Shown in pieces: positions 52,384 to 64,000 of a stretch of 64,000 nucleotides of DNA. Both the position numbers and the translations under genes were made by a program. Below the pieces are notes generated by a model. The model saw only the letters and a list, made by a program, of their open reading frames with translations. It had not been told where the DNA came from and searched no databases. Position 1 is the stretch's first letter; each line of letters begins with the position of its first letter. Source of the stretch: Arabiibacter massiliensis (GTDB lineage Bacteria > Actinomycetota > Coriobacteriia > Coriobacteriales > Eggerthellaceae); contig NZ_LT827021.1 in NCBI RefSeq assembly GCF_900169505.1, positions 62,001 to 126,000 on the forward strand, written 5' to 3'.

Positions 52384-52551
52384 TTCGTGGCGGTTTTTTC
52401 GCTAATCGATCATTTGGAGGCGTCGGATTCCGCCCCGGCGCGGCCACCGGCCCCACGCCCGTGCATCGCCCCAGTTCAGCTAGGCGGCGTTTTTCGCGTC
52501 CGTCCCGACGGTGCTAGGCGATGATCGATTAGCGTCAAAAACTGCCACGAA
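52384..52551. mobile_element. MITE-like element with inverted terminal repeats
   Basis: The ends TTCGTGGC...CGCTAATCGATCAT (52384-52413) and their imperfect reverse complement (52521-52551) enclose ~107 bp without a coding frame. The trinucleotide AGA lies on both sides (52381-52383 and 52552-52554), as a 3-bp target duplication would. It fills much of the 358-bp gap between the Nudix and HipA-like genes. A solo end of the same family is at 11529-11550. Confidence 0.55.
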
Positions 52552-52594
52552 AGACCGGTTCGCGTGCGCGCAGGGTCGGGCCGGCGGGAGCCCC

Positions 52595-52604
52595 GGGGGG
52601 GGGG
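52595..52604. repeat. Homopolymeric tract G10 upstream of the HipA-like gene
   Basis: Ten G, ending 22 bases before the -10 (52627), so the tract reaches the -35 position. Length changes here would alter promoter geometry, not a reading frame. Confidence 0.85.
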
Positions 52605-52623
52605 CGTGGATGCGCTGCCCTCA

Positions 52624-52632
52624 TGCTACAAT
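52624..52632 (+). promoter_or_regulatory. Extended -10 of the HipA-like gene (leaderless type)
   Basis: TGCTACAAT: extended TG, one base, TACAAT, 7 nt before the ATG at 52640. The start codon would be about +1. Confidence 0.6.
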
Positions 52633-52639
52633 TGCACCT

Positions 52640-53884
52640 ATGATACGCGAGAGCGACATATACGAGCTGCGGTTGTTCGATCAGGTGCTGATCGTCTTCC
52701 GCATGTCGCGCGGCGAATACGGCGATCTTTCGGTCGAAGTGCTCTCGACCGATTCGTCAGCCAATCGCCTCCTTCCGCTCTCGTTCGCCGGCGAGGCGAC
52801 CGATGAGCGTCTCTTCGAATGGATCCGCCGGCGCCGCATCCCGAAGAACCGCGCCTATGTCGACGAGATCCTCAAGTCATGCGGTATCGAATCCGACGAC
52901 GCGAAATCGATCATCGACGTGAGCAAGGGCCTCTCGCTCAACGACTCCTACTGGGTCGTCCCCCAGGGTCTCGAGGGCACGTTCGCCGAATGGAACCTCT
53001 ACGAGAACGAGATGAGCACGGCCCTGCAACTCGTCGCGTACACGGGGGTCGCCTCCGACGCGCTCGCCGACGGCGGCATCCCGAGCGAGCTCACCAACAG
53101 CGGCATGTTCCCCAAAGCGTGGCGCGCGAGGGGGTCTAAGCGCTTCCTGTACAAAGCCGGCCACCTGTTCGAGGGCGCGAACGTGGGCAAGGAGCCCTAT
53201 TCGGAATACCTCGCTTCGCAGATCGCGTACCGCATAGGTATCGACGCGGTTCCGTACGATCTGGCGTTGTGGAGAGGGAAGCTCTGCTCGACCTGCGAGC
53301 TGTTCTGTTCGAAGGATGTAGCGTTCGTTCCCTTCGGCTTCGCGGTTTCCTCCGAGCGCTTCAAGAACATGAACCTGCGCGAGGCGCTCGCGTATTTCGC
53401 GGGTCTCGGCGAGGGGGAGCTTGAGAAGTTCAAGTCGATGCTCGTGTTCGATGCGCTCATCTGCAACGAGGACCGCCACATGGGAAACTACGGCGTGCTG
53501 CGCGACGGCTCCACGGGCGTCGTGCAGGGGATGGCGCCGCTGTTCGACCACAATATGGCGCTGTTCGCGGGGGCGATGCCCGACGAGCTGAACGTGGGCG
53601 CGATGATGGGGAAGGCCTCGATCGGCCGTGGCGCGTTCGCCCCCTCGCTCGACGAGCAGGCAGCCCTCGTGATCGGCCCCGTGCAGAAGCAGCAGCTGGA
53701 AAGACTCGACGGATTCGCGTTCGAGCGACACTCGGTCATGGACGAGTTCGAGGAAGGCGATACCCGCAACTTCTTCAGCGACGAGCGCATAAGTATCCTG
53801 AACGATTACGTGGCTCGCCGTGCCGAGACGCTTCTTGCGCTGCCGACCGTTGATCCTGAGAAGATATTGGGAGATATCGGGTAA
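52640..53884 (+). CDS. HipA-like serine/threonine kinase (CtkA type)
   Basis: A 414-residue kinase-fold protein. A candidate ATP lysine is in KRFLYKAGH (Lys172), the catalytic loop is NEDRHMGN (Asp278), and the metal-binding loop is PLFDHN (Asp303). SELTNSGMFPKAW before the lysine is typical of solitary HipA-like kinases. No HipB-type antitoxin gene is adjacent, unlike hipBA. The start is ATG 52640, preceded by an extended -10 and no ribosome site; a longer in-frame reading from 52511 would run through the G10 tract and is not supported. The stop TAA overlaps the candidate -10 of the next RNA. Confidence 0.82.
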   Translation: MIRESDIYELRLFDQVLIVFRMSRGEYGDLSVEVLSTDSSANRLLPLSFAGEATDERLFEWIRRRRIPKNRAYVDEILKSCGIESDDAKSIIDVSKGLSLNDSYWVVPQGLEGTFAEWNLYENEMSTALQLVAYTGVASDALADGGIPSELTNSGMFPKAWRARGSKRFLYKAGHLFEGANVGKEPYSEYLASQIAYRIGIDAVPYDLALWRGKLCSTCELFCSKDVAFVPFGFAVSSERFKNMNLREALAYFAGLGEGELEKFKSMLVFDALICNEDRHMGNYGVLRDGSTGVVQGMAPLFDHNMALFAGAMPDELNVGAMMGKASIGRGAFAPSLDEQAALVIGPVQKQQLERLDGFAFERHSVMDEFEEGDTRNFFSDERISILNDYVARRAETLLALPTVDPEKILGDIG

Positions 53885-53893
53885 ACTGTCTTT

Positions 53894-53979
53894 GTCGCAC
53901 TTTTGGTGCGTGGATTGAAACATTTGTTTGTTGATTATGGTAGCGCGAGGGTCAACGCGATTGCGTTGACCCTCGCGCT
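53894..53979 (+). ncRNA. Candidate solo-repeat guide RNA (CreR/CreA-like)
   Basis: 53894-53921 is a 28-nt degenerate type I-C repeat: hairpin CGCAC-TTTTG-GTGCG followed by TGGATTGAAAC. The last 11 nt match the array handle CGGGTTGAAAC at 9 of 11 positions. The next 19 nt, ATTTGTTTGTTGATTATGG (53922-53940), match the minus strand at 54032-54014 with 17 identities; mismatches are at positions 6 and 10. A perfect 17-bp hairpin with GATT loop (53942-53979) ends the unit. A TAAACT at 53882-53887 would start RNA at the first repeat base. The sequence facts are direct; function as a Cascade guide is inferred. Confidence 0.6.
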
Positions 53980-53993
53980 GTGGTATTGTGTGC

Positions 53994-54022
53994 TTGTCAA
54001 AGAGCAAAAATGTCCATAATCA
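53994..54022 (+). promoter_or_regulatory. Promoter of the small HTH gene
   Basis: TTGTCA (53994-53999) with CATAAT at 54015-54020 (15-base spacer) or TAATCA at 54017-54022 (17-base spacer). Either -10 lies inside the stretch matched by the candidate guide RNA. Confidence 0.5.
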
Positions 54023-54035
54023 CCAATCAAATGAA
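54014..54035 (-). promoter_or_regulatory. Candidate partial protospacer with TTC PAM
   Basis: Read on the minus strand: TTC (54035-54033) followed by ATTTGATTGGTGATTATGG (54032-54014). TTC is the known type I-C PAM. The match to the solo-repeat spacer is 17 of 19 and then ends, which would favour binding over cleavage. It covers the -10 and touches the ribosome site of the HTH gene. Confidence 0.6.
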
Positions 54036-54042
54036 GGAAATT

Positions 54043-54210
54043 ATGGCGAACACACTTGTTGATACCAATGATGCCGCCAAGTTGCTTAATCTTTCGGCTC
54101 GCCGAATGCGACAGCTTGCTTTAGACGGTAATGTAAAAGCCGAAAAAATCGGAAACTGTTGGGCTTTTGACATTGAAGATCTCAAGAGATACCGAAATTT
54201 AGAACAATAA
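54043..54210 (+). CDS. Small excisionase/MerR-like HTH DNA-binding protein upstream of cas3
   Basis: A 55-residue protein. VDTNDAAKLLNLSARRMRQLALDGNVKAEKIGNCWAFDIEDLKRYR is the short winged-helix of excisionase-type proteins. ATG 54043 follows AAGGA; in-frame ATGs at 54010 and 54031 are possible alternatives but would lie in the promoter or leader. It is AT-rich against its surroundings. It sits between the candidate guide RNA, which matches its promoter, and cas3, 99 bp away. A regulator of the cas operon is a reasonable guess, not shown. Confidence 0.7.
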   Translation: MANTLVDTNDAAKLLNLSARRMRQLALDGNVKAEKIGNCWAFDIEDLKRYRNLEQ

Positions 54211-54266
54211 CAATTTCTTTTTCTCGCTTGACCCGATAGTGGGACATGCGATGAAAAAGGAAAGTA

Positions 54267-54272
54267 TATAAT
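54267..54272 (+). promoter_or_regulatory. -10 of the cas operon
   Basis: Perfect TATAAT, 37 nt before the cas3 start, in the AT-rich 99-bp gap. No good -35 at standard spacing, which would fit an activator-dependent promoter. Confidence 0.5.
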
Positions 54273-54309
54273 CATTCTATTGCTAAACATTTCAATGAAT
54301 GGGTGTCCC

Positions 54310-56607
54310 ATGACCGAGTACTACGCGCATACCGGTTCTGATCCTGATGACGTTTCCACGTGGCAGACGCTTTCGGAGCATGTGAACGAGGTGGCACGAC
54401 GGGCCGAGACGTTCTCGGAGAAGTTCGGCATGGGGATATGGGGTCGCGTGCTGGGATTGCTGCATGACGCGGGAAAGGTGAGCGTCGGATTCCGGAAGCG
54501 TTTGGAGGGCGGCAAGTCGGTCGATCATTCGACGGCGGGAGCGAAGGTCGCTATCGAGCGATACGGAATGTGCGGGCAATTCATGGCCTACGCGCTCTGC
54601 GGCCACCACGGAGGGCTGCCTAACGGCAAAATTTGGTCGGAATGCCCGCGTTCCCTGATGGGATCCTTGCGCAAGCCGCTCAAAGATCGCCTCGACAGTG
54701 AGGTCGAACCGTACGATGCCTTCTTCGAACTAGTAGAAGCGGGGGAAGTCAGCCTTCCCGACCTTGCGCAGTTAGGGGCTCCTATTCGCTCTGGGCGAAC
54801 GTTCGAGGGTACTGCACGCAAGGCGTTCTCGATGTTCGTACTGGAGCATTTCATATATTCCAGCCTGGTCGATGCTGATTACCTGGACACCGAGCGCTTC
54901 ATGACGCCCGAGGCCGCGGAAGCGCGCGAGGCGCGGGAACTCGCCAGCATGGAAGAACTCCTGGTGAAGCTCGAAAGCCACATGACTGAACTCATGGGCA
55001 AGGCAAGCGATACGCCGGTCAATCGAGCACGCCGCTCGGTGTACGAGGATTGCCTCGCAACCGCCGTGCGGCCTTCCGGACTCTACACTATGACGGTGCC
55101 GACCGGCGGCGGCAAGACGCTCAGCTCGCTGGCCTTCGCCTTGCAGCATGCGGTTGAACAGGGGATGGAACGGGTCATCGTGGCCATACCCTATACCAGC
55201 ATCGTCGAACAGACGGCCGCCACGCTCAAAGCCGTCTTCGGAGCGGCGAACGTGCTGGAGCACCACTCCAACTACGACTTCCGCGACCTCGACGGCGAGG
55301 AGAAAGTCAAGCAGCGCCTCGCCGTCCAGAACTGGGACGCGCCCATCGTGGTGACGACGAACGTGCAGCTGTTCGAGTCGCTCTTCTCGAACAAGCCGGG
55401 CAAGAGCCGCAAGGTGCATAACATTGCGCGAAGCGTCATCATCCTCGACGAGGCGCAGACGCTTCCCGACGAGCTGCTCAAGCCCTCGCTCGCCATGCTC
55501 GAGGAGTTGGTGGCGGGTTACGGCGCGAGCGTCGTGCTGTGCACGGCCACGCAGCCGGCGCTCGAAGGGCTCTGGCCGTTCGGTGCCGAGCCGCGCGAGA
55601 TCGTGCAGCGCCGCGACTCGTTCGACGAGGCGTTCGGCGGGCGGGTGGCCTACGAGTCGCTCGGCACGATAGAGGAGGTTAACCTCGTTGATTGCATCGT
55701 CGACTGCCACGAAGTGCTCTGCGTGGTGGGTACGCGCGGCCTCGCTCGCACTATCTACGACGATGTGGTAGCTCGGGCAGTGGAGCGTGGTGACCTTTCG
55801 GACGCCAAGCGCGCGTTCGACAAGGGGTTCTTCCATCTGAGCGCTTTCATGATCCCGGCCCACCGCAGCGCCATGCTCGAGCGCATCCGCAAGCGCCTGA
55901 GCGACAAGGAGCGTTGCGTGGTCGTGTCCACGCAGCTCGTGGAAGCGGGCGTGGACGTCGATTTCCCCGAGGTGTACCGCGAGCTCGCAGGGCTCGACTC
56001 CGTCGTGCAGGCCGCCGGGCGCTGCAACCGCGAAGGACGCCTGCCGGGCGCGGGCACGGTGCACGTGTTCGAGTTGTCCATCGACGGCGAGCGGCAGAAG
56101 ACGGAAACGTGGCTCGAGAAGATGAAGGGCATCGCCCGCGACGTGGTCCGCGAAAACGGCGGGAAAGTCGACGAGGGGTTGATTCCCACGTTCTTTAAAA
56201 CGCGCTACGACTCCGAATGCCTCGACGCCAAAGGCATCTTCCAAAAAACGGCCACGAAGGACCTGATCTTGGACGGATTCAAAACCATGCCGTTCGAGCA
56301 GTGCGCCCTGGATTACCGCATCATCGAAGATGATTCCGTCCCCGTGTTCGTGCCGTGGGGCGTCGAAGGGCGCGCGCTCCTCAAGGAGCTGCTCGGAAGC
56401 GAGAGCCCTGCGGGCATGGCCATGCGCCTGCAGCGGTTCAGCGTGGGGGTGCCCATCTGGAACATCGATAAGTATAAAAAAGCAGGCGCCGTTGAAGAGC
56501 TTGAGCCGTTCCTCATCTTGAAAGAGGATGGTTGCCGATCCTTCTACCGGGAGGATGTGGGGCTGGTCGCGGTGGGAGAGGAGGCTCTCGAGCTGCTGAG
56601 CTGCTGA
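54310..56607 (+). CDS. cas3: CRISPR-associated helicase/nuclease Cas3 (type I-C)
   Basis: A 765-residue effector nuclease. The N-terminal HD domain has the HD pair in LLHDAGKVSVGF (His52, Asp53) and CGHHGGLPNG. The SF2 helicase has TVPTGGGKTLSSLAFAL (Lys269), ILDEAQTLPDE (Asp380), CTATQPAL and VQAAGRCNREGR. It degrades target DNA after recruitment by Cascade. The start is ATG 54310 (MTEYYAHTG); ribosome site weak. The in-frame upstream codons from 54280 lack support. It is first in cas3-5-8-7-4-1-2. Confidence 0.95.
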   Translation: MTEYYAHTGSDPDDVSTWQTLSEHVNEVARRAETFSEKFGMGIWGRVLGLLHDAGKVSVGFRKRLEGGKSVDHSTAGAKVAIERYGMCGQFMAYALCGHHGGLPNGKIWSECPRSLMGSLRKPLKDRLDSEVEPYDAFFELVEAGEVSLPDLAQLGAPIRSGRTFEGTARKAFSMFVLEHFIYSSLVDADYLDTERFMTPEAAEAREARELASMEELLVKLESHMTELMGKASDTPVNRARRSVYEDCLATAVRPSGLYTMTVPTGGGKTLSSLAFALQHAVEQGMERVIVAIPYTSIVEQTAATLKAVFGAANVLEHHSNYDFRDLDGEEKVKQRLAVQNWDAPIVVTTNVQLFESLFSNKPGKSRKVHNIARSVIILDEAQTLPDELLKPSLAMLEELVAGYGASVVLCTATQPALEGLWPFGAEPREIVQRRDSFDEAFGGRVAYESLGTIEEVNLVDCIVDCHEVLCVVGTRGLARTIYDDVVARAVERGDLSDAKRAFDKGFFHLSAFMIPAHRSAMLERIRKRLSDKERCVVVSTQLVEAGVDVDFPEVYRELAGLDSVVQAAGRCNREGRLPGAGTVHVFELSIDGERQKTETWLEKMKGIARDVVRENGGKVDEGLIPTFFKTRYDSECLDAKGIFQKTATKDLILDGFKTMPFEQCALDYRIIEDDSVPVFVPWGVEGRALLKELLGSESPAGMAMRLQRFSVGVPIWNIDKYKKAGAVEELEPFLILKEDGCRSFYREDVGLVAVGEEALELLSC

Positions 56608-56661: not shown

Positions 56662-57327
56662 ATGGGATATGGCATCAAGGTGCTTGCGCAAGGCCCCCGG
56701 GCGTGTTTTACGCGACCCGAGATGAAGGCCGAGCGCGTCAGCTACGACGCCATCACGCCGTCGGCGGCGCGCGGGCTTATCGAGGCCGTGTACTGGAAGC
56801 CGGCGATCCGCTGGCACATCGACCGTATCGAGGTGCTCAACGAGATACGCTTCGACACATTCAGGCGCAACGAGCTGGGCGGCAAGCTGAGCTACCGCAA
56901 CGCCAAAGGCGCCATGGAGCGCGGCGAGGAGGTGTACGCGACCGCCAACGACGACCGCCAGCAGCGCGCGACGATGTATTTGAAGGATGTCGCATACCTG
57001 ATCGACGCCCATTTCGCGTTGACGGAGCAGGCGGGGGAGGACGATACGGTGGAGAAGCACTACAACATCGCCCTGCGCCGCCTGCGCAAGGGGCAGTGCT
57101 TCAACCAGCCTTACTTCGGCTGCCGCGAGTTCCCCGCCGACGTGTCGCTTGTGGAGGGCACGGAAGAGCGTCCCGCGTCGTTCTACGCCGGCTCCGGCGA
57201 GCGGGACCTGGGGTTCATGCTGTTCGACATCGACTTCGATCATGACATGGAACCCCAGTTCTTCCGCGCCTCGATGCGCGACGGCGTGATCGACGTCGCC
57301 CGCGCGCGCGAGGCGGTGGTCAGATGA
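56662..57327 (+). CDS. cas5c: Cas5c (Cas5d), pre-crRNA processing ribonuclease
   Basis: A 221-residue RAMP protein. In type I-C, Cas5 cuts the repeat RNA in place of Cas6 and caps the 5' handle. Tyr44 (AVYWKP) and the Lys132-His133 pair (VEKHYNIALRRL) are at the positions expected for the catalytic residues known from the family. ATG 56662 follows GGAAGGAGG. It overlaps cas8c by 4 nt. Confidence 0.94.
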   Translation: MGYGIKVLAQGPRACFTRPEMKAERVSYDAITPSAARGLIEAVYWKPAIRWHIDRIEVLNEIRFDTFRRNELGGKLSYRNAKGAMERGEEVYATANDDRQQRATMYLKDVAYLIDAHFALTEQAGEDDTVEKHYNIALRRLRKGQCFNQPYFGCREFPADVSLVEGTEERPASFYAGSGERDLGFMLFDIDFDHDMEPQFFRASMRDGVIDVARAREAVVR

Positions 57328-59150
57328 TCCTGCAAGAGCTCAACAAGTACTACGAGCGGCTGCTGGCCGACCCGGAGCGCGATGTGCCCGCCCGCCATTG
57401 GAGCGTGGAGAAGGCGGCGTGGGAGCTCAGGATCTCCCGCGACGGCAGGCTGCTGGGCGCGCACCCGCTCACGTCGGGCGCGGGCAAGGAGCTGCGGAAG
57501 TTCATCTCGCTGCGCGTGCCCGAGCATGCGACGCGCAGCGGAACCGGCATGCTGCCGTTCTTCCTGTGCGACAACGCGGCCTACCTGCTCGGCTATGACG
57601 AGAAGCGCGGACCCGAGAAGCTGGCGAGCGCGCGTGCCCTGCACGAGGCCGTGCTGGGCGAGTGCGACGACGAGGGCGCGCAGGCCGTGCTGCGCTTCTT
57701 CGAACGCGAGGATCGCGACGCCGACCTCGACGAGGGCGTGCGCTCCGATCTGGCGGAAGGCGGCGGCTTCGCGGTGTTCCGGCTGGACGGCGACCGAGAT
57801 CGGCTGCACGAACGGCCTGCGGTCGTTGCCGCGTGGACGTCCTACTGCGAGGACCGAACGGCAGGCGAGGTGGTGGGCCAGTGCGCCGTCACGGGCGAGG
57901 AAGGGCCGCTCGCGCGCCTGTTCCCCCAGGTGACCGGCGTTCCCGGAGCGCAGTCGGCCGGAGCGTCGCTCGTGTCGTTCAACCTGCAGTCGTTCGAGTC
58001 GTACGGCAAGTCGCAGGCGTACAACGCATCGGTCTCGGAAGCGGTAGCGTTCAACGCCGGCTCGGCGCTTCGGCAGCTCTGCGCCGACCGCTCGCATCGG
58101 GTGCGCCTTGGCCAGACGACGGTGGTGTTCTGGGCCGACCGCCCGGCACCGGCGGAGGATCTGGTCATGCTGGGGATGCTCGATCCCGACGAGCTTGACA
58201 GGGCCGAGGATCAGGATGCCGTGCAGGAGGTGCGTGCGGCGCTCGAGAGCATGGAGCGCGGGCTTCCCCTGACGGGGGTCGACACGGAAACGCGCTACTT
58301 CGTGCTGGGGCTCGCGCCCAACGCGGCGCGCTTGGCCGTGCGGTTCTTCGAGACGGACACGCTCGGCCGCATGGCCGAGAGCTTCGGCGCGTTCCTGCGC
58401 GACGTGTCCATGGCCGACGTGCGCGCCCGCTCGCTGCGTACGCTGCTGCAGCAGACGGCGCCCATGGGTTCCGCCGACCAGCTGCCCTCGACGCTGGTGA
58501 ACGGCTGCATGGAGGCTATGCTCACCGGGCGCGCGTTCCCGCAGGCGCTCTACTACGAGGTGCTCTCTCGCATGCGCTCCGACCATGCGCGGCGCAACTC
58601 ATGGGACATGGGCCAGCGAGCGGCGCTGCTCAAGGCGTGCCTTGTGCGCAAGGCGCGGCTCGGGGCGGACAATTCGGATGGACGAAACGGCGCTGAGCGC
58701 GTCGACGGAGAAAGGAGCCTGGACATGTATCTGGACAAGGAAAGGACTAACCGCGGCTACGTGCTGGGAAGGCTGTTCGCCGTCATGGAGCACGCGCAGC
58801 GAAGCGCGCTCGGCGAGGTGAATGCGACCATCCGCGACCGCTACATCGGGGCCGCCTCCACGACGCCTGCCCGGGTGTTCCCGCACCTGCTGCACAACAC
58901 GCAGCACCATCTCTCGAAGCTGAGCAAGTTCAATCACGGGCTCTACGTGAAGTTCGAGAAGGCGAACGACGAGATCATGGCGATGCTCGACGGCTCCGTT
59001 CTGTTCCCCAAGACGCTCGACGCGGAAGACCAAGGCGAGTTCTTCGTGGGGTACTACCAACAGCGCGTCGACCTGTGGAAGAAACACGACGATGAGGCCG
59101 ATGCGGCGGCGGACGCCGACGGCATCGACGACGAGACCGAAACCAACTAG
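57324..59150 (+). CDS. cas8c: Cas8c (Csd1), Cascade large subunit
   Basis: A 608-residue large subunit responsible for PAM recognition. It begins MILQELNKYYERL and contains the Csd1-type stretches YLLGYDEKRGPEKLASARALHEAVL, QSAGASLVSFNLQSFESYGKSQAYNASVSE and DRPAPAED. ATG 57324 overlaps cas5c (ATGA). A strong internal ribosome site and in-frame ATG at 58725 mark a likely separate small subunit (see that entry). Confidence 0.94.
   Translation: MILQELNKYYERLLADPERDVPARHWSVEKAAWELRISRDGRLLGAHPLTSGAGKELRKFISLRVPEHATRSGTGMLPFFLCDNAAYLLGYDEKRGPEKLASARALHEAVLGECDDEGAQAVLRFFEREDRDADLDEGVRSDLAEGGGFAVFRLDGDRDRLHERPAVVAAWTSYCEDRTAGEVVGQCAVTGEEGPLARLFPQVTGVPGAQSAGASLVSFNLQSFESYGKSQAYNASVSEAVAFNAGSALRQLCADRSHRVRLGQTTVVFWADRPAPAEDLVMLGMLDPDELDRAEDQDAVQEVRAALESMERGLPLTGVDTETRYFVLGLAPNAARLAVRFFETDTLGRMAESFGAFLRDVSMADVRARSLRTLLQQTAPMGSADQLPSTLVNGCMEAMLTGRAFPQALYYEVLSRMRSDHARRNSWDMGQRAALLKACLVRKARLGADNSDGRNGAERVDGERSLDMYLDKERTNRGYVLGRLFAVMEHAQRSALGEVNATIRDRYIGAASTTPARVFPHLLHNTQHHLSKLSKFNHGLYVKFEKANDEIMAMLDGSVLFPKTLDAEDQGEFFVGYYQQRVDLWKKHDDEADAAADADGIDDETETN
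58725..59150 (+). CDS. cas11c: Cas11c small subunit from an internal start inside cas8c
   Basis: In frame with cas8c, AAAGGAG (58711-58717), 7 nt, ATG 58725 starts a 141-residue product (MYLDKERTNRGYVLGRLFAV...). Type I-C systems are known to make Cas11 this way, of about this size, and the product is the helical C-terminal part of Cas8. The sequence is direct evidence for the site; use of it is inferred from the family. Confidence 0.75.
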   Translation: MYLDKERTNRGYVLGRLFAVMEHAQRSALGEVNATIRDRYIGAASTTPARVFPHLLHNTQHHLSKLSKFNHGLYVKFEKANDEIMAMLDGSVLFPKTLDAEDQGEFFVGYYQQRVDLWKKHDDEADAAADADGIDDETETN

Positions 59151-59159
59151 GAGGACACC

Positions 59160-60065
59160 ATGGCAGAGCCCATCAAGAACCGCTACGACTTCGTCTTCTT
59201 CTTCGACGTGAAGAACGGAAACCCCAACGGCGACCCGGATGCCGGCAACATGCCGCGCATCGACCCCGACACGAGCCGCGGCATCGTATCGGACGTGTGC
59301 CTCAAGCGCAAGATCCGCAACTACGTCGACCTGGTGAAAGGCGAGGAGATCGACGACCCCGACGTGGCCGAGGGCGAGCTCGGGTACAAGATCTACGTGC
59401 AGGAGGCGGCCGTGCTCAACGACCGCAACCGTAAGGCATACGTGCATTACGATATGAAGTCCACGCCGAAGAAGCTGCCGAAGGCCAAGGAAGACCAGCT
59501 CAAGGTCACGAAGTTCATGTGCGACAACTTCTATGACATCCGCACGTTCGGCGCGGTCATGACCACGGACGTGAACTGCGGACAGGTGCGCGGCCCCATC
59601 CAGCTGTGCTTCGCCGAGTCTATCGACCCGGTGCTGCCTCTTGAGATGAGCATCACGCGCATGGCCGTGACCAACGAGAAGGACGCCGAGAAGGAGAAGA
59701 CTATGGGGCGCAAGCAGTACGTGCCTTATGGGCTGTACCGGGCTGAAGGCTTCATCTCCGCGGCGCTCGCCGAGAAGACCGGGTTCTCGCAGGACGACCT
59801 CGACCTGTTCTTCGAGGCGCTGATGAATATGTTCGAGAACGACCGCAGCGCCGCGCGCGGGCTCATGACCTCGCGCAAGCTGTTCGCGTTCAAACACGAG
59901 AGCAAGTTGGGGAACGCGCCGGCGCACTGCCTGTTTGACACCGTGTCGGTGAAGCGACTCATCGAGGACGGCGCGGAGGCCCGCGCGTTCTCGGACTACA
60001 AGATCGTCATCGATGAAGCTGCGATTCCCGGCGAGGTGGAGCTGCTGAAGTTTCCCGACGAGTAG
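59160..60065 (+). CDS. cas7c: Cas7c (Csd2), Cascade backbone subunit
   Basis: A 301-residue RAMP protein that coats the crRNA spacer. The N-terminal FVFFFDVKNGNPNGDPDAGNMPRIDPDTSRGIVSDVCLKRKIRNYV and later DVNCGQVRGPIQLCFAESIDPVLPLEMSITRMAV are the Csd2 signature. ATG 59160 is close behind AGGAGG, 9 nt after cas8c. Confidence 0.95.
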   Translation: MAEPIKNRYDFVFFFDVKNGNPNGDPDAGNMPRIDPDTSRGIVSDVCLKRKIRNYVDLVKGEEIDDPDVAEGELGYKIYVQEAAVLNDRNRKAYVHYDMKSTPKKLPKAKEDQLKVTKFMCDNFYDIRTFGAVMTTDVNCGQVRGPIQLCFAESIDPVLPLEMSITRMAVTNEKDAEKEKTMGRKQYVPYGLYRAEGFISAALAEKTGFSQDDLDLFFEALMNMFENDRSAARGLMTSRKLFAFKHESKLGNAPAHCLFDTVSVKRLIEDGAEARAFSDYKIVIDEAAIPGEVELLKFPDE

Positions 60066-60068
60066 CCG

Positions 60069-60692
60069 ATGTACGCCGATGACGAGCTGCTGCCGCTATC
60101 GGGGCTGCAGCACATCGCATACTGCGAGCGGCAATGGGCGCTGATCCACCTCGAGCAGATATGGGACGAGAGCTACGACACGGTGCGCGGCGAGTTGTTC
60201 CACGGGCGGGTGCACTTGGAAGGTTACTCCGCGTCGAAGGGGGTCAGGTCCGAGCGGGGGTATCGGCTTGTGAGCCGCAACCTCGGTATATCAGGCATCG
60301 CTGATGTCGTGGAGTTCGCCGCGGACTGCGATGGTGTCGAGGCGGCGGTGCGACCCGTCGAGTATAAGGTGGGGAAACCAAAGATCGAGGAGTGGGATCG
60401 CATCCAGGTGTGCGCGCAAGCTCTGTGCCTGGAGGAGATGCTCGGATGCGCCGTAGGGCAGGGCAACCTGTTCTACGGCGCCACCCGTCGCCGTGAGCGC
60501 GTCGTGCTCGACGATGCCTTGCGCGAGCGCGTCGCGGGGCTGGCGCGCCGCATGCACGAGCTCTTCGACCGGGGCGAGACGCCTCGCGCCGTGCGCGGCC
60601 CTAAGTGCCGTCGATGCTCGCTGGCCGACTCCTGCCTCCCCGAGACGTTCGACCATGATGCCGCATCGTATTGGAAGGAGGCCGGGTTTTGA
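60069..60692 (+). CDS. cas4: Cas4 exonuclease (spacer selection)
   Basis: A 207-residue RecB-like nuclease with an iron-sulfur cluster. The first cysteine is in QHIAYCERQWAL, the last three in CRRCSLADSC. RPVEYKVGKPKIEEWDRIQVCAQALCLEEM carries the nuclease core (E-x-K and QxxxY-like part). Cas4 trims prespacers and checks the PAM during integration. It starts 3 nt after the cas7c stop and overlaps cas1 by 4 nt. Confidence 0.93.
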   Translation: MYADDELLPLSGLQHIAYCERQWALIHLEQIWDESYDTVRGELFHGRVHLEGYSASKGVRSERGYRLVSRNLGISGIADVVEFAADCDGVEAAVRPVEYKVGKPKIEEWDRIQVCAQALCLEEMLGCAVGQGNLFYGATRRRERVVLDDALRERVAGLARRMHELFDRGETPRAVRGPKCRRCSLADSCLPETFDHDAASYWKEAGF

Positions 60693-61714
60693 AGAAGCTC
60701 CTCAACACGCTCTACGTGACGAATCCCGAGGCGTACGTGTGCAAGGGCGACGACGCGCTTGTGGTGCGCGTGGATGGCGAGAAGGCGCTGCAGCTGCCGT
60801 TCCACCTCCTAGAGGGAATCGTCATGTTCGGGTATCTTGGCTGCTCGCCTGCCGTTCTGGGGGCCTGCGCCGAGCGGGGGATCACCATCTCGTTCTTGGA
60901 CGATGCTGGGCGGTTTCTCGCGCGGGTCGAGGGGCCGGTCTCGGGAAACGTGCTTCTTCGGCGCGCTCAGTACCGAGCCTCCGACGATCCCGCTGCCGCC
61001 CTGCGCCTCGCGCAGCGGTTCGTGGCGGCCAAGATCCGCAATGCCCGGACCGTCCTTCAGCGTTGCAGACGCGATTATCCCGAAGATGTGGACGAAGCCT
61101 TCGACGAGGCTATCGAGGCGCTCAGGATTCACGAGAATGGAGCATTCTCGACGGTCGACGCCGACGAGCTGAGGGGAATCGAGGGCGATGCGGCGCACCG
61201 GTACTTCGCCGTGTTCGACCGGTTGCTGAGGGCAGGGGACGGGTTCGCGTTCTCGGGGCGCACGAGGCGGCCGCCTCGGGATCCGGTGAACGCCCTGCTG
61301 TCGTTTTTCTACTCGCTGCTGGCACGCGAGGTGGCAAGCGCGTGCGAGACGGTCGGGCTCGATCCACAGGTGGGTTTCTTCCATCGTGACCGGCCGGGGA
61401 GGGCGAGCCTTGCGCTGGACGCCATGGAAGAGCTGCGGGCGTGGTACGTCGATCGCTTCGTCGTCTCCCTGATCAATCGGCGACAGGTGAGTGAGGCCGA
61501 TTTCTCTTCGAGCGAGGCTTCGGGCGTCATCTTGACTGACGCGGCCCGCAAGAACGCGCTCGGCCTGTGGCAGCAGCGCAAGCAGGAGCAGGTCATGCAC
61601 CCTTATCTGAAGGAGAAGGTGCCGGTGGGACTCGTGCCATTTCTGCAGGTCCAGCTGCTGGCGCGCCACTTGCGCGGCGATTTGGACGATTACCCGGCGT
61701 TTCTCTGGAGGTGA
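60689..61714 (+). CDS. cas1: Cas1 integrase
   Basis: A 341-residue metal-dependent integrase subunit. Typical stretches are LLEGIVMFGYLGCSPAVLGACAERGITISFLDD, DPVNALLSFFYSLLAREVASACETVGLDPQVGFFHRDRPGRASLALDAMEELRAWYVD (metal-site Glu, His, Asp/Glu). TTG 60689 overlaps the cas4 stop and has GGAAGGAGG 7 nt upstream, a better choice than the earlier in-frame codon at 60671. Confidence 0.94.
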   Translation: MKKLLNTLYVTNPEAYVCKGDDALVVRVDGEKALQLPFHLLEGIVMFGYLGCSPAVLGACAERGITISFLDDAGRFLARVEGPVSGNVLLRRAQYRASDDPAAALRLAQRFVAAKIRNARTVLQRCRRDYPEDVDEAFDEAIEALRIHENGAFSTVDADELRGIEGDAAHRYFAVFDRLLRAGDGFAFSGRTRRPPRDPVNALLSFFYSLLAREVASACETVGLDPQVGFFHRDRPGRASLALDAMEELRAWYVDRFVVSLINRRQVSEADFSSSEASGVILTDAARKNALGLWQQRKQEQVMHPYLKEKVPVGLVPFLQVQLLARHLRGDLDDYPAFLWR

Positions 61715-61716
61715 CG

Positions 61717-62007
61717 ATGTACGTGCTGGTGACATACGATGTGGAGACGGCGAGTTCGCAGGGGGCTCGCCGACTGCGCCGCGTGGCGAAGATCTGCGTG
61801 CAGTACGGGCAGCGCGTGCAAAACTCAGTGTTCGAATGTTCGCTCGATCCGGCGCAGTTCGAGACGATGAAACACGAGCTAATGAAAGCAGCTGACCTAA
61901 CTCGCGATAGCCTAAGGTTTTATAATCTTGGGAAGAACTGGAAGCGAAAAGTGGAGCACGTGGGAGCAAAGGAAGCGTACGACCCCGAAGGGTTTCTATG
62001 CGTGTGA
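61717..62007 (+). CDS. cas2: Cas2, Cas1 partner
   Basis: A 96-residue ferredoxin-fold protein that bridges two Cas1 dimers. MYVLVTYDVETASSQGARRLRRVAKICVQYGQRVQNSVFECSL is the family signature. ATG 61717 is just behind TGGAGG. It is the last cas gene, 184 bp before the first repeat. Confidence 0.94.
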   Translation: MYVLVTYDVETASSQGARRLRRVAKICVQYGQRVQNSVFECSLDPAQFETMKHELMKAADLTRDSLRFYNLGKNWKRKVEHVGAKEAYDPEGFLCV

Positions 62008-62191: not shown

Positions 62192-64000
62192 GTCGAGCCC
62201 CTCGCGGGCTCGCGGGTTGAAACACGTTCGAGGACGGCGACCGCTCGATCATGCGTGTCGAGCCCCTCGCGGGCTCGCGGGTTGAAACGTCTGTCGTCTC
62301 GATGAAGGCCCCTGACGAGGTGCGTCGAGCCCCTCGCGGGCTCGCGGGTTGAAACTCATCCATCGAGAAGAGGAGGACGCATGGAGAACGTCGAGCCCCT
62401 CGCGGGCTCGCGGGTTGAAACTCATCGAGCATGTCGCCGGAGGCGTGCCGGTGGGGTCGAGCCCCTCGCGGGCTCGCGGGTTGAAACGCGGCCCATGGGT
62501 CCGGGCTCTACAAGATCACCGTCGAGCCCCTCGCGGGCTCGCGGGTTGAAACCGAAGCTTGGGAGCTCCTCCCACTTTCCCGCGACGGTCGAGCCCCTCG
62601 CGGGCTCGCGGGTTGAAACGATATAGGCCGCGAACGCATCGGCGAACAGCTCGTCGAGCCCCTCGCGGCCTCGCGGGTTGAAACGTCATCCGGCACCGCC
62701 GCCGCGCTTGCGGCGAGGTCGAGCCCCTCGCGGGCTCGCGGGTTGAAACGGCGCTATCGTCGCCATCGGCATCATCCTCAAGGTCGAGCCCCTCGCGGGC
62801 TCGCGGGTTGAAACTGCGTGCATGTCGTCTATCTGCTCTCCCTGCGCTCGGTCGAGCCCCTCGCGGGCTCGCGGGTTGAAACTCGCTGACGGCCGAGGCG
62901 TCGATCCGCCGATGGCTGTCGAGCCCCTCGCGGGCTCGCGGGTTGAAACCGTACACGTAGCCGCCGCTGTTTGCGGAGGTGTGTCGAGCCCCTCGCGGGC
63001 TCGCGGGTTGAAACGAGATAGGAAACAGACACATCGTTTATGTGGTACGTCGAGCCTCTCGCGGGCTCGCGGGTTGAAACAAGCAACGATGCGTCAAAGT
63101 CGAGCGGCACGCCAAGTCGAGCCCCTCGCGGGCTCGCGGGTTGAAACACCGAGCAGGACTGGCGGTCGCTGATGTGCGTCGGGTCGAGCCCCTCGCGGGC
63201 TCGCGGGTTGAAACAACTCCATGCTGCTCCTGACGGCCGTCATGCAGGTCGAGCCCCTCGCGGGCTCGCGGGTTGAAACAACCCCGCCAACGACGACGTG
63301 AAGTACGAGCCGAAGGTCGAGCCCCTCGCGGGCTCGCGGGTTGAAACTCGGCAAGGTCGTCTATCGCGTCGAAGCCGCCGGTCGAGCCCCTCGCGGGCTC
63401 GCGGGTTGAAACGAAAGATAAAGCGAAAGATGAAGAGCTAGATACAAGTCGAGCCCCTCGCGGGCTCGCGGGTTGAAACTATCCGGGCCTCGGATAATTA
63501 CGTTCTCACTTATGGTCGAGCCCCTCGCGGGCTCGCGGGTTGAAACTGCATGACCTCGGTGGGAAGCGCCCCGCGCCCTAGTCGAGCCCCTCGCGGGCTC
63601 GCGGGTTGAAACGTTGACGGTATGGCCGAGGCCGGCGCGGACGTGCTGTCGAGCCCCTCGCGGGCTCGCGGGTTGAAACAGGGCCAAGTGATCGCATGGA
63701 GTACGTCATTGCTGTCGAGCCCCTCGCGGGCTCGCGGGTTGAAACCACTCCACCTTGACGGCCTTGGCCTTGTTGCCGGCGTCGAGCCCCTCGCGGGCTC
63801 GCGGGTTGAAACGGTAGCCCAGTACAGCGCAACGGCGACGGATACAGGTCGAGCCCCTCGCGGGCTCGCGGGTTGAAACCCTTCCGTGGGGACATGGGCG
63901 ACGATCCGAAAGAGTCGAGCCCCTCGCGGGCTCGCGGGTTGAAACCCTCGACGGCGCGCCCGCCCGCGTCGGCTCCCTCGTCGAGCCCCTCGCGGGCTCG
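62192..64000 (+). CRISPR. Type I-C CRISPR array (27 complete repeats plus one cut by the window end)
   Basis: Repeats are 32 nt, starting GTCGAGCCCCTCGCGG and ending CTCGCGGGTTGAAAC. The stem is GAGCCC / GGGCTC with a CTCGC loop and a G-CGGGTTGAAAC handle. I count 28 starts: 62192, 62257, 62324, 62390, 62456, 62521, 62588, 62653, 62718, 62783, 62851, 62918, 62983, 63049, 63116, 63183, 63248, 63316, 63381, 63448, 63515, 63581, 63648, 63714, 63781, 63848, 63914, 63980. The 27 spacers are 33-36 nt and all different. Repeat 8 has C for G at position 17 and repeat 14 T for C at position 9. The array continues past 64000. Leader and cas2 lie on the left, so new spacers enter there. Confidence 0.98.

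Follow-up and report, generated by a model that had tools for sequence, protein, structure and literature searches.

Why should a lone, degenerate CRISPR repeat lie just upstream of a cas operon, followed by a guide that matches the start of the gene next door? The window, by which we mean the whole 64,000-nucleotide stretch of DNA analysed here, contains an operon and array that together are a complete type I-C system (Table 1), with Cas5c and Cas8c/Csd1 scoring above their NCBIfam cut-offs. From the comparison of sequences set out below, we think it very probable that the module upstream of this operon encodes a crRNA-like guide with which the cell directs its I-C Cascade to the beginning of a small helix-turn-helix (HTH) gene, where it would block transcription rather than cut.

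Table 1. The guide module, its target and the neighbouring type I-C locus, in window coordinates.
Feature	Position	Strand	Remarks
Solo (ectopic) type I-C repeat	53894..53921	+	28 nt, GTCGCACTTTTGGTGCGTGGATTGAAAC; short stem-loop followed by 11-nt handle TGGATTGAAAC (53911-53921)
Guide ATTTGTTTGTTGATTATGG	53922..53940	+	Identical to target at 17/19
Strong terminator-like hairpin 3' of guide	53940..53981	+	19 pairs; likely 3' end of guide RNA
Target (protospacer) ATTTGATTGGTGATTATGG	54014..54032	-	Read 54032-54014; 17/19 to guide
PAM TTC	54033..54035	-	Read 54035-54033; within ribosome-binding region of HTH gene
Gene for 55-residue HTH_17/excisionase-like predicted DNA-binding protein (cargo)	54043..54210	+	PF12728 E 8.6e-7
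cas3 (type I-C)	54310..56607	+	First cas gene downstream; Pfam; PADLOC Cas3c E 2.6e-201
cas5c, cas8c, cas7, cas4, cas1, cas2	56662..62007	+	Pfam, NCBIfam, PADLOC
CRISPR array, 32-nt repeats	62192..64000	+	Extends beyond window end

The initial annotation described a lone degenerate I-C repeat whose guide matches a TTC-flanked site at 17 of 19 positions, and direct reading of the sequence bears this out to the base; TTC is the PAM of type I-C systems. As in CreR, the repeat-like element sits outside the array and beside the cas genes, and it departs from the array repeat (62192 onward) in length, in its stem and at two handle letters. RNA folding gives it a 6-bp stem and leaves the handle single-stranded, and processing by Cas5c yields handles of 11 nt. 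The hairpin that follows the guide is a hit in the terminator scan, where 0.8 such hits are expected by chance in the 701-base stretch scanned, and the interval 53893-53990 folds far better than its shuffles (z = -7.6). The promoter scan found no plus-strand promoter upstream of the solo repeat. Two other identities for the module were considered and rejected: no tRNA was found, and the only Rfam matches were two sub-threshold miRNA hits, both on the big hairpin. Directly upstream of the module lies a HipA-like kinase gene (52511-53884; PF07804 just below its cut-off, PADLOC candidate PDC-M03A), and by eye HipA-like sequence also precedes cas3 in locus L003 and the module in locus L004.

The match between guide and target is hard to obtain by chance. 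None of 20,000 shuffles of the 373-nt region from guide to cas3 reaches at least 17/19 (these were single-letter shuffles, not dinucleotide-preserving), and the PAM plus seed, with positions 6 and 10 left free, occurs once in the 3.38 Mb genome, at the target site. When the genome was searched with the PAM and 16 guide positions at up to 3 mismatches, two places besides the target were returned, namely the guide itself and a site whose two mismatches fall on guide positions 1 and 2; a control search with the pattern reversed gave 1 match. The target lies 278 nt upstream of cas3, before the HTH gene. The earlier placement of this site at the start of the HTH gene stands, but its proposed overlap with a -10 element is less certain: the spacing of TTGTCA (53994) and CATAAT (54015) is 15 nt, and no plus-strand promoter before the HTH gene came out of the promoter scan. 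At L004 and L005, the nearest loci with a cargo gene, a promoter-like pair lies further upstream, and by arithmetic the target would fall in the early transcript. Target binding may block initiation, or it may act as a roadblock in the early transcript. A separate scoring of promoters in the modules was run without a null test and is given no weight here.

We searched for relatives with the window's Cas3 as query, which found matches in 16 of 138 genomes of the family and 47 of 396 of the class; an order-level search (42 of 395 genomes) added one genome, G794, with cas3 at the contig start. The class comparison covers 48 regions upstream of I-C-like cas3 (L002-L049), the I-C subtype of the relatives being taken from Cas3 similarity alone. 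Rows were dropped where the match starts mid-protein (G594, G737 and the partial row G403:C26), where cas3 is at the contig start (G794) or where the N-terminus is missing (L060), and the short regions L012, L068 and L078 were kept. The scanned stretch was the region before cas3, limited to its last 900 nt in the joint search for repeat and target and in the cross-locus test of guides. Fifteen regions were picked by eye because they hold a lone repeat that shares the strand of cas3, is no more than 500 nt from it and lies outside arrays and cas3. Repeat-like hits were dismissed, also by eye, when they were on the minus strand, over 500 nt distant, or part of cas3 or of an array. The picked repeats lie 121-493 nt upstream of cas3; nine were chosen before any target search and six had been noticed beforehand. 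A PAM-flanked matching site is present in 15 of 15 picked regions, and a joint repeat and target search yielded two further modules.

Seventeen of the 48 class regions, window included, thus carry a lone repeat with a distinct guide and, in the interval from there to cas3, a site that this guide matches (L002, L004-L007, L013, L019-L023, L025-L027, L030, L032 and L048), and these modules span four families of the window's order. The PAM is TTC in 16 of them and TTT in one, and the target is on the minus strand in every case. RNAfold predicts that the interval from guide to target contains a hairpin in every one of the 17, a count made without a shuffle control; the terminator scan gives the window and L004 a guide terminator, reports no such hit for L005, and at L013 lists just one weak hairpin that comes later. 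The remaining 31 class regions have no module, and none was accepted at 29 further I-C-like cas3 loci outside the class (14 in other phyla, 15 in the rest of the phylum). In the nearest relative, G068 (L003/L083), Cas3 is 87% identical and the module is absent from the 3.5 kb scanned; judging from these sequences, the module is dispensable, or has been lost, in that lineage. By eye, G068 has no HTH gene before cas3, and an array lies about 1.6-2.1 kb before it. Arrays fall within the 900 nt scanned at L014 and L053, with no target of their own. One candidate from another family of the phylum, L072, was not counted: its handle AGGATTGGAAC lacks a stem (by eye) and its target lies upstream on the other strand. 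With a 9/10 seed match at roughly -199 to -104 from cas3, and mismatches at 1, 6 and 12, L072 may be a distant relative of the module.

What lies between target and cas3 varies. In 13 of the 17 modules the target is 20-144 nt upstream of the Cas3 match, and these gaps contain two frames that reach 15 codons or more: a 26-codon frame with a TTG start (L027) and a 19-codon frame that overlaps cas3 (L022). The other four, L004, L005, L013 and the window, have a small gene in this slot. The cargoes of L004 and L005 are homologous basic peptides of 28-29 residues (46% identity), with strong matches at these two loci only among 137 family genomes; a 211-aa frame at another place in G062 also matches, but weakly (E 0.005). 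At L013 the frame in this position is unrelated to these, is 32 residues long and lies about 100 nt past the target, in a stretch that other short frames overlap; a hairpin after the peptide gene, seen by eye, suggests that it is a separate unit there. These peptides bring to mind addiction of the CreTA/CrePA kind, in which Cascade represses a toxin and growth stops once Cascade is lost or an anti-CRISPR blocks it. A small peptide gene in all three of the other cargo modules fits a repressed toxin better than an activator, and a protein-toxin variant, CrePA, is described in the available part of PMC12737573. We nevertheless consider a toxin somewhat unlikely: the window's own cargo is predicted to be an HTH protein resembling Xis and RacA, more regulator than toxin, and 13 of 17 modules have no clear cargo at all.

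Three loci have arrangements of their own. At L013 one guide has two sites, about 390 and 500 nt upstream of cas3, the first before the peptide gene and the second, with a 10/10 seed and TTC, just 5' of the locus's own repeat, an arrangement which suggests that this guide may limit its own expression. L006 has two tandem TTC-flanked sites starting AGTGA, at about -129 and -104 from cas3, with seed matches of 9/10 and 6/10, respectively. At L005 (G062) cas3 carries one in-frame TAA and the guide module is retained, a pattern consistent with a Cascade that regulates without cutting.

The window's cargo is most likely a DNA-binding protein, as judged from profile and structure predictions. It scores below the cut-off of TIGR01764; AlphaFold2, run on the single sequence, gave a best pLDDT of 88.8 (other models 61.5 to 82.5), and the nearest folds are Xis of phage Pukovnik (TM 0.72) and RacA (TM 0.68), none with E <= 0.001, with RdfS, GlnR and BldC also listed. 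The homologue search, which requires shared five-residue words, returned only the protein itself, and because no relative was found the protein cannot be traced. A start at 54043 rather than 54010 is supported by the order of hairpin, site, PAM, ribosome-binding sequence and start codon, which the window, L004 and L005 share by eye. The database entry for the protein has 66 residues, which fits the upstream start at 54010; the target would then lie inside the gene.

Whether repression at this site would extend to the cas genes depends on the gap between the HTH gene and cas3. The terminator scan found no terminator-like site there, so repression likely reaches cas3. The stretch 54211-54312, however, folds better than its own shuffles (z = -3.2), and it contains a palindrome, TGACCC-N6-GGGACA, at 54229-54246, and downstream of it a TATAAT before cas3 with no clear -35; taken together, these mean that read-through into cas3 is not certain and a separate cas promoter is conceivable. 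As an operator of the HTH protein the palindrome is a weak candidate that we set aside: one site, counted on both strands, compares with 1.0 expected when one mismatch is allowed, and 33 of 100 shuffles reached 2, which is not significant by itself. Palindrome-like elements also occur by eye before cas3 in L004, L005, L011 and L016, in loci with and without a guide module, and it is possible that the palindrome is an operator of some cas regulator.

The initial annotation went further: if the HTH protein activates cas, a Cascade repressing the HTH gene would create an indirect negative feedback. The predicted DNA-binding fold, the position of the gene directly before cas3 and the cas3 TATAAT without a clear -35 but with a palindrome upstream, as in activated promoters, would all suit such a loop. 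Against it, the homologue search gave this protein alone, a palindrome-like element precedes cas3 by eye in the HTH-less loci L004, L005 and L016, and no such gene is present in 13 of 17 modules. We regard the activator loop as unlikely; neither activation of cas by the HTH protein nor control of cas through this protein alone is established. Direct repression of the cas transcript would be the simpler reading, because those 13 modules lack an HTH gene and have the site immediately upstream of cas3.

The evidence that bears most directly on Cascade comes from how guides and targets pair across the 17 modules. Co-variation of guide and promoter in related genomes had been proposed as a check, and it comes out in favour of the module: the guides differ and each matches its own site, the opposite of the independent divergence that would have spoken against it. 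At seed positions 1-5 and 7-11, 163 of 170 cells match, where re-dealt guide-target pairs give a mean of 75.1 (sd 7.9) and a maximum of 112 in 20,000 deals; at positions 13-17 the figure is 55 of 85, against 27.3 re-dealt. The mismatch noted early on at guide position 6 in the window, where guide and target differ at positions 6 and 10, is part of the general pattern: position 6 matches in just 1 of 17 modules (re-dealt 3.8). Positions 12 (5/17, re-dealt 4.5) and 18 (5/17, re-dealt 3.1) are near chance, and positions 19-24 match in 22 of 102 cells (re-dealt 24.6); neither these nor position 6 rise clearly above the re-dealt level. As sites were selected by the seed minus position 6, the results at 6, 12 and beyond are not an artefact of selection, whereas the seed figure is partly its product, which is why the cross-locus controls matter. 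In these, 9 of 5,092 pairings of guides with other loci's 900-nt regions reach 9/10 with TTC, and in a narrower control the same threshold is reached by 2 of 210 cross pairs and, when guides are shuffled, by 15 of 7,500. L004 and L005 are close relatives whose guides differ at three seed positions, and at each of these the target has changed to match.

Because the matches break at 6, 12 and 18, this pairing reads as that of a type I Cascade, with its six-base rhythm, and not as a plain inverted repeat. A paired seed with positions 6 and 12 unpaired is the pattern expected of CreR and seen here, and positions 6 and 12 are likewise unpaired in CreA, according to the accessible text of PMC8501985. 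Guide and target are inverted relative to each other in all 17 modules (both strands were searched); this layout might go back to an inverted duplication, might protect against the deletions to which direct repeats are prone, or might reflect a block that works in one direction. The uniform orientation, and the fact that guide and target fold together around the big hairpin (z = -7.5), are what one would expect if the two simply paired as the stem of an attenuator in the RNA or of a cruciform in the DNA and the handle were coincidental. A plain stem, however, needs neither a break at position 6, seen in 16 of 17 modules with near-chance matching at 12 and 18 and conserved neighbours, nor a kept repeat and PAM (TTC in 16 of 17), and we judge this explanation highly improbable. 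Still more remote is a decayed array that took a spacer by accident from its own promoter, for although a dying array does leave behind a single repeat that has diverged, such decay would not produce 17 modules in which the guides differ, the seeds match and the PAM is retained.

We therefore return to the reading in which Cascade is guided to its own locus, and propose the following course of events. The guide RNA would be transcribed from just before the repeat and end at the hairpin, and Cas5c would trim it to the TGGATTGAAAC handle. Cascade loaded with this RNA would pair at positions 1-5, 7-11 and part of 13-17; the R-loop would remain incomplete, such that Cas3 would not be licensed. While Cascade is in spare supply, the HTH gene and, by read-through, the cas genes would be held down; once crRNAs or anti-CRISPR proteins occupy Cascade, the block would lift and expression would rise. 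The HTH protein would likely be an auxiliary DNA-binding regulator whose production is largely confined to times of scarce Cascade. Extending this idea, we tentatively entertain the possibility that a sensor of free Cascade has been wired to an Xis-like regulator, released to reset cas and other genes, with the guide slot swapping among autorepression, peptide toxins and a regulator.

How does this module relate to guide RNAs already described? It is likely a type I-C relative of the CreR and CreA guide RNAs. With CreR it shares a repeat-derived guide outside the array and a partial, PAM-flanked match, present in all 17 modules, to what may be a promoter region beside cas, and by analogy also a predicted autorepression that would read free effector; 13 of 17 sites lie directly before cas3. 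It differs in being of type I-C and, in the window, in having the gene of a predicted DNA-binding protein between site and cas3. Autorepression is listed for types I-B, I-E and V-A in the available part of one review (PMC13131331) and attributed broadly to type I and V-A in that of another (PMC12737573). We found no report of CreR in type I-C in the open-licence literature, a body of work that did not include the primary CreR paper, and the term I-C does not occur in PMC12737573, PMC9458426, PMC8501985 or PMC10097628. Like CreA of the CreTA (CreA-CreT, type VIII) toxin-antitoxin systems, in the excerpted account of PMC8501985, the module has a degenerate ectopic repeat, a seed at 1-5 and 7-11, a TTC PAM and a place beside cas; in the same account creA of Haloarcula hispanica, as here, has one repeat and a terminator, whereas most known creA have two repeats. 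In the window, the place of an RNA toxin is taken by a gene predicted to encode a protein. In this the module resembles CrePA, a protein-coding gene under a Cascade-guided block as described in PMC12737573, a block which is predicted here; the HTH_17/Xis-like protein of the window differs from CrePA, and the peptides of L004, L005 and L013 fit it better. Autorepression by Francisella scaRNA-Cas9 and SpyCas9 also uses a CRISPR effector as a partial-match transcriptional repressor (available text of PMC9458426 and PMC13131331), but with a Class 2 effector and another guide architecture. On the literature covered, what is new is the I-C subtype and a gene slot with exchangeable content, filled in the window by the gene of a predicted DNA-binding protein, while the CreR/CreA mode of action is known.

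Having found these modules, the next question is what they mean for the organisms that carry them. We see strong comparative evidence that the I-C Cascade, the effector of a compact subtype, would serve as a programmed repressor of its own locus. The 17 natural guide-target pairs also point to the positions under selection, 1-5, 7-11 and part of 13-17, but not 6, 12 and 18. The type I-C system of Eggerthella lenta has already been used for editing, and I-C systems occur in many other Coriobacteriia, according to the accessible part of PMC9734109; if the window's class is Coriobacteriia, a genetic chassis exists. Finally, if Cascade directly controls the gene of a small protein that is predicted to bind DNA, this would offer a possible route by which an anti-CRISPR attack leads to a transcriptional response.
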